A DNA stretch of 38,460 bases, taken from the NCBI GenBank assembly GCA_001803795.1, contig MHEK01000001.1, forward strand, positions 17,150 to 55,609. Reading direction: 5' to 3'. Made by a program: the position numbers and the translations under genes. Shown piece after piece: positions 14,338 through 37,560 of this stretch. The DNA is from Nitrospirae bacterium RBG_16_64_22. GTDB taxonomy: Bacteria; Nitrospirota; RBG-16-64-22. Positions within the stretch are counted from its first letter, which is position 1. Every line of letters begins with the position of its first letter. Under the pieces are notes generated by a model that saw nothing but the letters and a program-made list of their open reading frames with translations, made no database searches and had not been told where the DNA came from.

Positions 14338-15843
14338 ATGTCGACCCCCGCCGAGCAAATCCATCGTTCGATTGCCGCCCGCACGCCCCTCATCTGCGCC
14401 GTCACGGAAGGGGACGAGCGGATCGAGACGCTCATGCAGGACCTCGCCGGCAGGGCCTTCTCGAAGCCCGTCCCTTTCTACCGCTGGACGCTTTCCGACG
14501 GAATGACGCAGGGCGGCAAACCGGTCGAGGATGCGCCTCGGGACGCCGAACTGGCCCTCGCCTGGGCCGCGGGTCGTTCGGAGGTCGCGTTCTATCTCTT
14601 TCACGACCTCCACCATCGCATTCTGTCCGACATCGGGATCGTTCGCCGCCTCAAGGACGTTTACCAGAGGTTCCGGCCGACCTACTCGTGCCTCGTCTTT
14701 TCCTCTCCGACCCTGCACCTTCCGGCGGAGCTGACGACGATCACGCTCGTCGTGGACATGGGACTGCCGGGTCCCGACGAGCTCGATGCGCTCTTCGCGC
14801 GGACGGCCTCGCCCAACAAGCAGTTGGCGCCTTCCCTCGCCTCCCTGCCCGCCGACGTCAAACAGCAGATTCTCGCCGCCGCCATGGGCCTTTCCTACCC
14901 GGAAGCGGAGCGGGCGTTCCGCCGCTCACTCGTGGGCAAGAACACGATCGACGCGTCCGTCCCCAGGACGATCTTCGAGGAAAAACAGCAATTCATAAAA
15001 AAGAGCGGGATCATGGAGTTCGTGGAAGCTGGCATTCGTCTCGAGGACATCGGCGGGATGAAAATGCTCAAAGACTGGCTCGTCAAGCGCCAGACGCTCT
15101 TCTCGGAGGAGGCGCGGGAGTTCGGCCTGTCGCTCCCCAAGGGCGTCCTGATGACCGGGATCTCCGGCTGCGGGAAGTCCCTCTTCGTGAAGGCCATCGC
15201 CTCCTTCTGGAACCTTCCCCTGCTCCGTCTCGATATGTCCAAGATCTACGGCGGCTCGTTCGGCTCCCCGGAGGAAGCCTTTCTCAAGGCGGCGCACACG
15301 GCCGAGGCCGTGACGCCTTGCGTCCTGTGGATCGACGAGATCGAGGCGGGAATCTCCGTCCAGGGGTTCAAGGCGGAAGGAGGCGCCGCGTCGCGCGTCC
15401 TCGGATCGTTTCTCACCTGGATGCAGGAGAAGAAGGGTTTCGTCTTCGTCGCCGCCACGGCCAACGCGATCGACCTCCTCCCCGCGGAGGTCCTCCGGAA
15501 AGGGCGGTTCGACGAAATCTTCTTCGTCTCGCTCCCCACGAAGGAGGAGCGCAAGCAGATCTTCCGGATCCACATGTCCACGCGAAAGAACAACCCGGAT
15601 GACTTCGACCTGAACCTTCTGGCCCACGGCACGAAGGGGTTCTCGGGGGCGGAGATCGAGCAGGCGATCGTGAGCGCCATGTTCGAGGCGTTCAGCGAAA
15701 AGCGCCCCCTCCAGCAGAGGGACATCATGATCGCCCTCGACAGGACGGTCCCCCTCTCCGTCACGATGCAGGAGCAGATCAAGAAGATCGAGCACTGGGC
15801 CTACAACCGCGCCGCGAGAGCGTCGGAGAAGGAACAGGAATAG
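14338..15843 (+). CDS. Ycf46-like AAA+ ATPase
   Basis: A 501-residue stand-alone AAA protein. Residues 1-180 form the Ycf46-type N-terminal domain (ARTPLICAVTEGDERI, FYRWTLSDGM, FYLFHDLHH), followed by a helical linker. The AAA module has IGGMKMLKDWL, Walker A GISGCGKS at 274-281, Walker B VLWIDEIE at 329-336, sensor-1 AATAN and an Arg-finger-like RKGRFDEIF. The C-terminal lid includes GFSGAEIEQAI. In cyanobacteria Ycf46 is linked to carbon-use regulation, but no biochemical function is settled for most homologues. It is monocistronic here, divergent from the mqnD-like gene across 173 bases, in which I found no convincing promoter. A palindromic element starts seven bases after its stop. Confidence 0.85.
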   Translation: MSTPAEQIHRSIAARTPLICAVTEGDERIETLMQDLAGRAFSKPVPFYRWTLSDGMTQGGKPVEDAPRDAELALAWAAGRSEVAFYLFHDLHHRILSDIGIVRRLKDVYQRFRPTYSCLVFSSPTLHLPAELTTITLVVDMGLPGPDELDALFARTASPNKQLAPSLASLPADVKQQILAAAMGLSYPEAERAFRRSLVGKNTIDASVPRTIFEEKQQFIKKSGIMEFVEAGIRLEDIGGMKMLKDWLVKRQTLFSEEAREFGLSLPKGVLMTGISGCGKSLFVKAIASFWNLPLLRLDMSKIYGGSFGSPEEAFLKAAHTAEAVTPCVLWIDEIEAGISVQGFKAEGGAASRVLGSFLTWMQEKKGFVFVAATANAIDLLPAEVLRKGRFDEIFFVSLPTKEERKQIFRIHMSTRKNNPDDFDLNLLAHGTKGFSGAEIEQAIVSAMFEAFSEKRPLQQRDIMIALDRTVPLSVTMQEQIKKIEHWAYNRAARASEKEQE

Positions 15844-15850
15844 CCCGCCG

Positions 15851-15920
15851 GGCGCACGAATGCAAACAACGAAAAGCGCCGCAGAGGTCGGAGAACCCCG
15901 CCTTTCAAGGCGGGGTTCTC
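15851..15920 (+). repeat. Dispersed palindromic element, copy 1 (also likely terminator)
   Basis: Seventy bases beginning GGCGCACGAATGCAAA and ending in a perfect 12-base stem (15891-15902 with 15909-15920, loop TTTCAA). A near-identical copy in the opposite orientation is at 36611-36679. It lies between convergent genes, so the hairpin can end transcription from both sides. The shared bases reach well beyond the hairpin, so it is a repeated element and not merely a terminator. Confidence 0.8.
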
Positions 15921-34383: not shown

Positions 34384-34476
34384 ATTGGAAATTGGAAATT
34401 GCAAATTGGAAATTGGAAAACGAATGACAAATACCACAATTTTGAAATTTACAATTTGCAATTTCCAATTTCCAAT
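34384..34476. repeat. Long inverted repeat built of ATTGGAA heptamers
   Basis: The left arm (34384-34408) is a run of ATTGGAA-type heptamers, continuing imperfectly to 34418. The right arm (34452-34476) is its perfect 25-base reverse complement, with 43 bases between. The element is very A/T-rich in a GC-rich setting and lies between the GGDEF-EAL stop and the ffh promoter. It could fold into a long hairpin and act as terminator or insulator. Confidence 0.88.
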
Positions 34477-34499: not shown

Positions 34500-36599
34500 C
34501 TAACCGAGGTGGGAGTCCGCGATGTGCGGGAAGAAAGGCCGTCCTTCCCGCAGGAACTGGGTCATGGCCTCGCCCGGGACCGCCGGGCTGAAGAAACACC
34601 CCTGGATCTGGTCACAGCGGTTCCTGCGAAGAAAGGCCATCTGCTCTTCGGTCTCCACCCCTTCGGCGATGACCTTGAGCCCCAGGTTGTGGGCGAGCAG
34701 GATGATGGCGCTTGCGATCGCGGCGTCGCTCGGGTCGGTGGCGATGTTCCGGATGAACGACGTGTCGATCTTGAGTTTGTCGACGGGGAAGTGCTTGAGG
34801 TAGTTGAGATAGGAGTGCCCCGTGCCGAAATCGTCGATCGCGATCTGGACGCCCATCGCCCTGATGTCCCGCAGAGTCTCGATCGTCGGCTCGGCGTTCG
34901 GGATGATGAGGCTCTCCGTCAGCTCCAGCTCCAGGAATCGGGGCTCCAGGCCGGTTTCGCCGAGAACGCGGTCAACCATTTTCACGAGGTCTTTTTCCCT
35001 GAGCTGGCGGCTGGAGAGATTGACGCCCATCTTCATGGGTGGAAAACCGGCCGATTGCCAGGCCTTGTTCTGGGCGCAGGCGGTCCGGAGGACCCACTCG
35101 CCGATCGGAACGATCATCCCGGTCTGTTCCGCAAGCGGAATGAAGTCCGTGGGCGAGATGATCCCCCAGGTGGGGTGCAGCCAGCGGATGAGCGCTTCCA
35201 TTCCCACGATCTCTCCCGTTCGCAGATCGACCTGAGGTTGGTAGTACATGGCGAACTCGGCCCGCTCCAGGGCGTGGCGCAGGCCGGTCTCCATCGCTAG
35301 CCGCTCGTGGGCCTTGATCGTCATGATGGGCGAATAGAACTGGTACTGGTTTCCGCCCTGCTCCTTGGCCCTGTACATGGCCGCGTCGGCGTTCTTGAGA
35401 AGGGTCTGCGCCTCGGCGCCGTCGGTCGGGAAGAGCGTGATTCCGATGCTGGCCGTGATGAACAGTTCATGCCCTTCCACGACGAAGGGCTGAGAGAGAA
35501 GGTCGAGGAGTTTTTTCGCGACGGTGGCGGCGTCCTGCGCGTGCGACATGTACGTCAGAATGATGTTGAACTCGTCGCCGCCGAGCCGCGCGAAGGTGTC
35601 GCCGTCGCGGACGATGACCGAGAGGCGGTGCCCGGCTTCCTTGAGAAGCTGATCGCCGATCGTGTGGCCCAGCGTGTCGTTGATGACCTTGAAGCGGTCG
35701 AGATCGAGAAAGAGGAGGGCGACGGGGTTCTTGAGGCGCTGGGCCTGGGAGATCGCCTGGTGCAACCGGTCGATGAACAGCAGGCGGTTCGGGAGGTTGG
35801 TCAGGGGGTCGTGGTGGGCGAGATGGTTGAGGCGCGACTCTGAGTCAAGGAGCCGGGCGGAGGCCTCGTTCAACGCTTCTCCGAGCTGTTCGATCTCGAC
35901 GGTCGTACGGTCCACGGGGATCTTGTTCCCCCGAAGCTCGTCGAGCTTCTGGGCGAAGACGGTCGCGCGCCGGATGGCCCGCATGGGGCGGCCGAGAAAA
36001 GCGAGAAGAAGCGCCGTGCTCGCGAGGATCGCGAGGACGACGGCGATCAGGCTGCTCTTCCTGATCTGCCCGCGGATCTCGCCGATCGTCCGCAAAGAGT
36101 GCTCGATCCGGACCCAGCCGAGAATGCCGCCGCTCGCGACCGGGCGCCAGACGGCCAGACGGTCCGCCTCCCGCTGGACAATGGACCCGCCGGAGTCGGA
36201 CAACGCGGGAGGCGTGAGGGGGGGCTCGCCGAACCGGACGCGGGCGGGGGCGTTGTTCTCCGTGCGGACGACGTCGCCCACGCGGCGGCCGCCCGCGTCG
36301 GTCACCTGGATGCTCAAGACCCCGGGGAACTCGGCCGATTGGATGAGAATCTGCTCGAGCGAGGCGAAGTCGCGGACGACGAGGTAATCCGCGCTGGCCG
36401 TCGCCAGGTTCTGGGCCAGAGTGTGGATCTCCATCAGGATCGTCTTCTCGGCGATGGCCGACTGTTCCCTGGCCGTGTACCAACCGTAGAGGGCGATCGT
36501 GATCGCGAGCATCAGGCCGGAGAGCAGGGCCAGTTGCGCGTGAAGGCTTCTCGGCCAGAGCCGGTTTCCGAGCGAGAGGTTGTTCTTCGTTCGATTCAT
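34500..36599 (-). CDS. Membrane GGDEF-EAL protein
   Basis: A 699-residue c-di-GMP enzyme. Membrane helix 1 lies at about 20-40, then a periplasmic sensor domain of about 120 residues (TLAQNLATASADYLVVRDFASLEQIL), helix 2 at about 175-195, and a HAMP-like segment. The GGDEF domain has an intact GGDEF at 340-344 and an inhibitory RxxD at 331-334. The EAL domain has E468-A-L and LTESLI, with IDDFGTGHSYLNYL. Both active sites look complete, so it may make or degrade c-di-GMP depending on signal. The upstream neighbour, a periplasmic PhnD-like binding protein, is a candidate signal partner. I chose the ATG at 36599; the longer frame would run into that gene. Confidence 0.94.
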   Translation of the reverse strand: MNRTKNNLSLGNRLWPRSLHAQLALLSGLMLAITIALYGWYTAREQSAIAEKTILMEIHTLAQNLATASADYLVVRDFASLEQILIQSAEFPGVLSIQVTDAGGRRVGDVVRTENNAPARVRFGEPPLTPPALSDSGGSIVQREADRLAVWRPVASGGILGWVRIEHSLRTIGEIRGQIRKSSLIAVVLAILASTALLLAFLGRPMRAIRRATVFAQKLDELRGNKIPVDRTTVEIEQLGEALNEASARLLDSESRLNHLAHHDPLTNLPNRLLFIDRLHQAISQAQRLKNPVALLFLDLDRFKVINDTLGHTIGDQLLKEAGHRLSVIVRDGDTFARLGGDEFNIILTYMSHAQDAATVAKKLLDLLSQPFVVEGHELFITASIGITLFPTDGAEAQTLLKNADAAMYRAKEQGGNQYQFYSPIMTIKAHERLAMETGLRHALERAEFAMYYQPQVDLRTGEIVGMEALIRWLHPTWGIISPTDFIPLAEQTGMIVPIGEWVLRTACAQNKAWQSAGFPPMKMGVNLSSRQLREKDLVKMVDRVLGETGLEPRFLELELTESLIIPNAEPTIETLRDIRAMGVQIAIDDFGTGHSYLNYLKHFPVDKLKIDTSFIRNIATDPSDAAIASAIILLAHNLGLKVIAEGVETEEQMAFLRRNRCDQIQGCFFSPAVPGEAMTQFLREGRPFFPHIADSHLG

Positions 36600-36610
36600 C
36601 GGCGGTTGAA

Positions 36611-36715
36611 GAACCCCGCCTTGGAAGGCGGGGATTCTCCGACCTCCAAGGTATTTGTCGTTATTTGCATTCGTGCGCCTTGACCCCGCCCCAAGGGGCG
36701 GGGACTCGGGCGCAC
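36611..36715 (-). repeat. Dispersed palindromic element, copy 2
   Basis: On the minus strand this element starts eight bases after the PhnD-like stop. A first hairpin has outer arms GTGCGCC/GGCGCAC (36709-36715 with 36673-36679) and inner arms CCCCGCCCC/GGGGCGGGG. Then come GAATGCAAATAACGA and a second hairpin CCCCGCC-TTCCAA-GGCGGGG, followed by TTCTTCAAC. The 36611-36679 part aligns with copy 1 at 15851-15920. It may act as terminator or attenuator between the two genes. Confidence 0.8.
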
Positions 36716-36723
36716 TTTTCGGT

Positions 36724-37560
36724 TCATCGGACGACGTACCTGTCAAGGCCGAGCTGTTCGAGCGGTTTGTAGTCCCGCGCGTAGTCGGCTTGGACGGGTT
36801 TCGGCATTTGTACTTCGTTCAGGATGCGCCGGCCGTCGCCGTCGCCGGTCATTTGCAGGATGTTTTCGACGACGGATTTCCGCAGTTTGAGGCTCACGCG
36901 CGGATGGGCGGAGAAGGGATGCGTGACCATGCCGGGCGTCTCGTAGAGAACGCGGAGCTCGGCCCGCACTTCGGGCGTGTCCCTTTCGAACGTCTTGTTC
37001 GCGGCGCTTCCGGCCCGCGTCATTCCCAGGATGACGTTCCGGTAGACGTTCGTGTGGCTGACGACGTAGCGCGGGGTGATCCGGATTTTCTCCTTCTCGG
37101 CCAGGAGGGCGCGCATGTAGAGAGAGGCCGCGCACGAATTGGGCGCCGGAAAGGCGACCTCCATTCCGTCCAGGTCCCTGACCGTCTTGACCGCGCTGTC
37201 CTTGCGGACCACCAGGATTCCCTTGAGCGGGCTCCCGCCGTCGCGGACAAGAGGAACGTAGCCGACCGGCCCGAAGACCCTGGCCTGTTCGTATGGGTTC
37301 AGGAAGGCGAAGTCCGGGATTCCCTTGAAGACGTCGTTCTCGAATTCCGAAAGCGTCTGGTAGATCTTCAGGCGGATCTCCGTCCCGGTCGCTTCAGACA
37401 GGCGCTTGGCGAACGGGGCCCAGGCCCGGTGGGCCGCGAGCGGCGGGAGTTGCGGGACGACGGCAAGGGTATAGGTTGGCTTCGCTTCATCAGCGGCGGC
37501 CGGAAGAACCCAAAGAGATACCGCGGCGAATAACGCCGCGCAGAGGTGGAACGCCGTCAT
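36724..37560 (-). CDS. PhnD-like phosphate/phosphonate-type periplasmic binding protein
   Basis: Two hundred and seventy-eight residues. A signal peptide (about 1-23, AAVSLWVLPAAADEA) precedes a type-II binding-protein fold of the PhnD/Phosphonate-bd family: YTLAVVPQLPP, FAKRLSEATG, FAFLNPYEQARVFG, GILVVRKDSAVKTVRDLDGMEVAFPAPNSCAAS, RYVVSHTNVYRNVILG. No permease or ATPase gene follows. The next gene is a membrane GGDEF-EAL protein, so the binding protein may present a ligand to that sensor instead of feeding a transporter. The upstream gap (37561-37777) has a TATGAT-like box near 37630 but no clear -35. Confidence 0.9.
   Translation of the reverse strand: MTAFHLCAALFAAVSLWVLPAAADEAKPTYTLAVVPQLPPLAAHRAWAPFAKRLSEATGTEIRLKIYQTLSEFENDVFKGIPDFAFLNPYEQARVFGPVGYVPLVRDGGSPLKGILVVRKDSAVKTVRDLDGMEVAFPAPNSCAASLYMRALLAEKEKIRITPRYVVSHTNVYRNVILGMTRAGSAANKTFERDTPEVRAELRVLYETPGMVTHPFSAHPRVSLKLRKSVVENILQMTGDGDGRRILNEVQMPKPVQADYARDYKPLEQLGLDRYVVR

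Follow-up and report, generated by a model that had tools for sequence, protein, structure and literature searches.

A phylum-wide family of short, probably IS200/IS605-type mobile elements in Nitrospirota inserts after TGAA and carries a putative guide strand covarying with its left end

PATEs and IS608 are the closest described systems to the repeat studied here. The PATEs of Haloquadratum and Halanaerobium, in the excerpted accounts (PMC3119063, PMC7290912), lack terminal inverted repeats, have near-terminal palindromes, generate no target duplication, are too short for a transposase and use a target of 4-5 bases at the 5' end. IS608, in the excerpted text of PMC5934647, inserts 3' of TTAC and keeps this target at its left, has TCAA as CR and GAAT as GR, and prefers C at +1.

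Our repeat occurs twice in the window, the whole stretch of 38,460 nucleotides that we analysed. As far as the excerpts describe them, it shares with PATEs the ends without terminal inverted repeats, the near-terminal palindromes, the absence of duplication, the shortness and the 5' target, and with IS608 a tetranucleotide target that remains in the left flank, immediately 5' of the insert, the combination of TCAA with GAAT, and C at +1. The excerpted accounts relate Haloquadratum and Halanaerobium PATEs to IS605-type transposons with the same ends, whereas we found none here; they also describe nothing like the spread of the present family across a phylum at near-constant length or its covariation between left end and guide. 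Unlike IS608, the element has neither tnpA nor tnpB, its target is TGAA or TTAA, and an additional covarying strand, which pairs with the left end, is located 5' of the right hairpin, the IS608 target guide being 5' of the left one. We conclude that the repeat is very probably a non-autonomous, PATE-like mobile element of the IS200/IS605 type, presumably moved in trans by a Y1 enzyme and equipped with an extra, putative guide strand. A miniature IS200/IS605-like derivative had been proposed in an earlier, sequence-only reading of this DNA, and several features support that proposal: the choice of target, its insertion without duplication, a hairpin near each end, the right cleavage site TCAA with its foot of GAAT type, and C at +1.

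The same reading had described a 70-base palindromic unit present in two copies. Both copies are there, related far beyond chance, but the unit is larger: what had been read was only the right half of copy 2, which is complete at 117 nt and aligns at 93% with the genus consensus (Table 1). Rather than being a single palindrome, the element has two different hairpins, always in the same order, with a conserved linker between them. From 5' to 3' it starts with CC and an imperfect left palindrome; the linker GAATGCAAATAACG follows, and after it a short segment whose last bases are AGGTC. The right hairpin (GGAGAAT-CCCCGCC...GGCGGGG-TTCTTC) comes next, and AA precedes the right border. It thus has a subterminal hairpin at each end, no terminal inverted repeats, and too little length for a transposase gene. 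The right cleavage site of copy 2, TCAA, is made of the terminal TC of the right hairpin plus AA. In its putative guide, GG could pair with the element's first CC, T with A at -1, and C with the target G at -3. Copy 1 is a remnant, because its left half and last bases are missing; its right end has decayed to TTCTCTGACG in place of TTCTTCAAC. RNAalifold predicted 31 pairs, only 3 of which had changes on both sides, a number to be expected of young copies, and DNA folds of seven members had z-scores of -2.1 to -6.1.

Table 1. Features of the two window copies and their neighbourhood (positions in the window; a caret marks the insertion junction)
Feature	Position	Strand	Basis or remark
Complete element (copy 2), 117 nt	36606-36722	-	consensus alignment and empty sites in sister genomes
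Insertion target TGAA of copy 2	36723-36726	-	empty sites in G001 and G002 read CCGATGAA^C
First four element bases, facing the putative guide: CCGA in copy 2, CCGC in consensus	36719-36722	-	
Left palindrome GTGCGCC...GGCGCAC around CCCCGCCCC/GGGGCGGGG	36673-36715	-	
Putative guide AGGTC	36641-36645	-	covariation across the family
Right hairpin GGAGAATCCCCGCC...GGCGGGGTTCTTC, GAAT foot	36608-36640	-	
Flank position +1 of copy 2, C	36605	-	55 of 65 full copies have C here
Copy 1, a remnant of the right part (consensus positions 48-117)	15851-15919	+	
Gene upstream of copy 2, encoding a phosphonate-type ABC substrate-binding protein (PF12974)	36724-37560	-	stop codon is the target's TGA
Downstream gene of copy 2, GGDEF and EAL domains, start 6 bases past +1	34500-36599	-	

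The borders were fixed by comparing occupied with empty orthologous sites. For 17 copies we fused the left and right flanks and used the product as a query against three genomes: the window's own assembly (G000; 2.38 Mb in 118 contigs, 89% complete), which supplied 12 of the copies, and two sisters of the same genus (G001 and G002), which supplied the other 5. In 11 of the 17 cases, a sister genome contains at least one continuous stretch across the junction that lacks the element. Clean empty junctions were found for L024 in two genomes (GTTGAA^CGGCC), for L025 (CTTGAA^AGCG) and for L033 (TTCAA^CCTT). Both sisters carry the empty site of window copy 2 and thereby fix its borders; it reads CCGATGAA^CGG, exact on the left side and with an 11-base difference immediately to the right. 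The empty site of L027 has TGAG in both sisters, and small indels or changes in the target are present at those of L083, L088, L042, L082, L066 and L034. No target duplication was seen at any empty-site locus compared. Comparison of the genomes shows, at the level of sequence, that the element is mobile, with exact borders, and inserts precisely 3' of TGAA, which it keeps at its left. Some insertions are common to two genomes (L084/L227, L028/L200 and L021/L206) and most of the tested G000 insertions are not; therefore activity continued after the species split.

The flanks of 65 full copies (64 from the genus and one from G361), with borders not shifted toward known targets, gave a matching picture: TGAA precedes the element in 53, A occupies both -2 and -1 in all 65, and C is at +1 in 55. 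Other flank positions held no notable information, leaving TGAA^C as the only conserved flank. Since both ends read AA^C in the window genus, or often AA^T in relatives, site-specific recombination at a shared AAC/AAT core, by an integron-type attC site or an IS110-type bridge RNA, might be considered, and the pairing of an internal strand with the left end would suit it. The empty site of L025, however, has a flank other than C and places the C in the element, and therefore the break lies between A and +1. To our knowledge, moreover, neither a pair of subterminal hairpins nor a 4-base target is a feature of attC. We consider recombination of this kind very unlikely, and retain single-strand transposition of an IS200/IS605-type element as the preferred reading.

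The window's genome carries about 40 copies and two sister species carry more, contrary to the possibility, raised in the sequence-only reading as one that would speak against a mobile element, that only two copies exist. The 16-mer GGCGCACGAATGCAAA, allowing up to 2 mismatches, occurs 39 times in G000, compared with once for a reversed control pattern. Partial and self-inverse rows are included in the 75 matches of a 121-nt query to G000, and also in the matches of the full-length query at E <=1e-4, which number 44 in G000 and 43 and 21 in the two same-genus genomes. An exact 21-base pattern, run over 84,980 named species genomes, matched 18 stretches, all in the Nitrospirota records JACPZO01 and CAKKSE01; we take these to be the sister genomes G001/G002, and the window's own record may be absent from that set.

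DNA search of 395 Nitrospirota genomes gave a match in 7. A covariance model at E <=0.001, by comparison, found relatives in 57 of the 395 genomes and 46 of 170 genera, most matches being 112-127 nt and thus near-constant in length. The model was built from 25 copies, two of them from other genera, with rough calibration, and at most nine candidates were scored per genome, making its copy numbers lower bounds. A first search for relatives, whose result was 11/61, used a query of the right half plus about 51 nt of flank and therefore gives no family count. Collecting genomic copies, mapping their ends and building such a model had been among the checks proposed for this repeat, and they recovered the family and its exact borders. 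The 104 relative loci that we read share one plan: TGAA^ or TTAA^, a short lead, (A)GCGAGCG, the left hairpin, GCGAGCGAATA, an A/T-rich linker, the guide, the right hairpin and CTTCAA^. The family also occurs on three Ca. Manganitrophus plasmids: two of four plasmid queries matched, in these three records only, and the other two matched nothing. In the two Ca. Manganitrophus records examined, no annotated transposase lies within 4 kb of the copies. Two exact patterns had 0 matches in viral contigs, and one query found none in phages.

In the relatives, the right hairpin is directly preceded by bases that mirror those at the start of the element. Left ends and putative guides combine as TGAA^CCCG with CGGGTC, TGAA^TCCG with CGGATC, TGAA^TTCT with AGAATC, TGGA^AACG with CGTTTC, TGAA^TATG with CATATC, and TTAA^ATGG with CATTA. 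Writing the left junction as N1N2N3N4^XYZW, the guide would consist of the complements of W, Z, Y and X in that order, a T opposite N4 and a base opposite N2, with N3 skipped. Taking one element per genome, 36 of 43 pair at 5 or more of the 6 positions and 13 at all 6; against left ends from other genomes, 15% reach at least 5 and 1.4% reach 6. With a fixed anchor, 31 unique left ends pair at 2.48 of 4 positions, as opposed to 1.30 when permuted (maximum 1.94 in 20,000), and the 17 types unique on both sides at 3.06 of 4 (permuted mean 1.35, maximum 2.35 in 20,000). Across 42 distinct types the in-register mean is 2.21, as against 0.79-1.55 when the guide is slid by -6 to +4 and 1.07 when N3 is not skipped. 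Just 19 of these 42 types reach 3 of 4, and therefore many copies must be decayed or exceptions.

The base opposite N2 follows the target as well. Among 162 rows it forms G:C in 127, the pairing of the TGAA types, and T:A in 21, that of the TTAA types, and 14 deviate. For this count and the other anchored ones, the anchor expressions were devised with the sequences already in view, and 162 of 168 rows had an anchor and were used. Because the TTAA types may form one clade, the N2 link could rest on few events. Before the pairing counts, left borders of model matches were shifted by up to 2 bases toward TGAA, TGGA, TTAA, ATAA or CGAA, and these targets are therefore favoured in the relatives' counts. 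The Manganitrophus copies, which lay outside the building of the rule, fit it with one mismatch, although their type had already been seen. The helix between left end and guide appears in the minimum-energy DNA fold of one of seven elements folded (L351).

Compensatory changes seen on comparing relatives support this left-end/guide pairing, which is a new observation: we found no report of such Nitrospirota elements or of such covariation in the titles and abstract openings of a mostly freely readable literature. It is possible, though we would not call it probable, that a single internal DNA guide, lying 5' of the right hairpin, reads the target (at -3 and -1) as well as the left terminus of its own element, that target choice is rewritten by changing the guide together with the first bases, and that this architecture, distinct from the two-guide IS608, is moved by a Y1 or other enzyme across the whole phylum. 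DNA-DNA pairing for target choice is known in detail for very few elements, and a phylum-wide family with natural compensatory guide variants provides existing variants with which to test how single-strand elements locate their ends and targets.

How far the element follows IS608 differs between its two ends. At the right, under a pairing rule of which two pairs are given in the excerpted PMC5934647, the cleavage site is complementary to the tetranucleotide at the 5' foot of the right hairpin, and the two change together: GAAT or GATT accompanies TCAA in 121 of 168 rows, and GATA accompanies TCAT in all 6 TCAT rows. For the left end, the guide pairing rule of IS608 predicts CAAT for the target TGAA. 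The consensus left foot, CAAT, fits TGAA, but TGAA is also the target of a GAGT subfamily, and TATT, found in the TTAA types, is not what the rule predicts. The simple IS608 left-guide rule is half supported, and we set it aside as a full model. Where N2 of the target is G, the base at +1 is identical to the first base of the element in 56 of 77 elements beginning with C, 26 of 41 with T and 6 of 15 with A; the predicted identity holds for C and T and fails for A. In the TTAA types, T follows A.

Given IS608-like features and a left-guide rule that only half fits, we propose that a Y1 enzyme acts in trans on a folded strand in which a new helix ties the left end and target to the right hairpin. 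We infer the single-strand route, the transposase type and the role of the guide. In this scheme, the single-stranded element would adopt its two hairpins and be cut by a Y1 (HUH) transposase supplied in trans, on the left behind TGAA and on the right behind TCAA; the released strand would then be ligated 3' of another TGAA, with a preference for sites followed by C. The choice of right cleavage site is probably made by the GAAT/GATT foot of the right hairpin, as in IS608. The guide strand probably draws the left end and the target towards the right hairpin and has a part in selecting the target.

The missing transposase would be a concrete, findable partner. RAYT-like Y1 genes are present in G000-G003, and none of the Y1 genes with readable flanks there carries the element's ends. 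Some (L050 and L051 in G000; L138-L140 and L143 in relatives) have inverted ends of their own, of the type GGGGACGT...ACGTCCCC, while the excerpted PMC3733652 states that RAYTs are not flanked by CGTC repeats. A further 25 genomes, mostly drafts, gave 68 Y1 matches; 30 of these loci were fetched and scanned with the model, and by-eye reading of borders covered all but L275, L277, L282, L287, L289, L290 and L295 of the 30. Among the 43 Y1 loci scanned with the covariance model, none has a Y1 gene between left and right family ends. No TnpB match was found in G000, the one genome searched for it, and the IS200 model NF033573 had no match over cut-off in G000-G003. The idea that the copies are TnpB-less remnants of a parent has accordingly found no parent among the Y1 loci read. 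Two loci were rejected as candidates: L273, of IS200-type tnpA, matches the family mainly via the hairpin (E 1.6e-5) and has different borders, and L281 has a weak match (E 4.5e-6) far from the Y1 gene and on one side only. Orphan halves in G000-G002 were likewise rejected as a gene-bearing parent, being internal deletions (L195, L200, L204), nested insertions (L086, L206) or decayed ends.

The RAYT-like genes raise the question of whether the family is a REP/REPIN-type repeat spread by a host RAYT (TnpA-REP). Like REPs, it consists of short intergenic hairpins in many copies, possibly served by a Y1 enzyme in trans, and RAYT-like genes are at hand in G000-G003. Those of the window genus with readable flanks are nevertheless bordered by their own ends, as described above, and for this reason we dropped them as the parent. 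The element also has no GTAG or CGTC tag beside a hairpin, and it was not found flanking a RAYT gene among those read. REP cleavage occurs at CT in the excerpted PMC8266576, as opposed to after AA here, and the present unit has exact borders and two different hairpins in fixed order. We therefore judge a REP/RAYT origin unlikely and keep the reading of a PATE-like IS200/IS605-type element.

Both window copies had been placed within ten bases of a gene's stop codon. This is true of copy 1, which starts 7 bases after TAG (15841-15843). For copy 2, the start first assigned (36679) lies about 45 bases from the stop, whereas the complete element begins one base beyond it, the TGA of the stop being the first three letters of the target TGAA. 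The family in general adjoins stop codons because its target can contain a gene's TGA: of 47 listed copies, 42 are full length and 32 of these sit at TGAA, and in 9 of the 32 the TGA is the upstream gene's stop, an insertion that leaves that gene intact. In the window, 1 of 28 non-coding TGAA sites is at a stop, taken as copy 2's own site, which makes a weak background for enrichment, the genes having been called by a small purpose-written codon-usage finder. The element lies on the same strand as the upstream gene in 25 cases and on the opposite strand in 13; its orientation is therefore mixed.

These 9 copies, together with the strong hairpins (the z-scores given above), could also be taken to mean a structured RNA or transcription terminator kept after stop codons. 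Yet no intrinsic terminator (hairpin plus T run) is predicted at either window copy, and we dropped the suggestion that the copies now serve as 3' terminators. No Rfam model matches the window at gathering score, and a known RNA family was dropped too. Empty orthologous sites and mixed orientation likewise speak against an RNA or terminator, and the target accounts for the link to stops; we hold this explanation to be highly improbable. The structured-RNA option of the sequence-only reading keeps some room for an RNA role, with mobility explaining the structure itself. Movement of an IS200/IS605-type element thus explains a class of repeats that hug stop codons without invoking terminators.

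Several copies depart from the standard plan. L200, L204 and L212 are single-hairpin derivatives of about 50 nt, with left and right ends fused through repeated hairpin arms, and L043, L090 and L091 (all in G000) are longer versions with additional hairpins between the halves. At L086 (G000, contig C109), a copy is interrupted by a different element, which has the ends CAGGACTTTCCCC / GGGGAAAGTCCTG and is accompanied by a 10-base duplication, GCACGAATGC; this insert is a nested transposon of a different type. One copy that two species share, L021 (G000, contig C1) and L206 (G001, contig C42), contains a similar insert of about 140-190 bases with ends GCAGGTTGC / GCAACCTGC. Elsewhere in the window, positions 34384-34476 hold an A/T-rich inverted repeat of ATTGGAAATTGCAAATT units, whose 37-base arms are 92% complementary.
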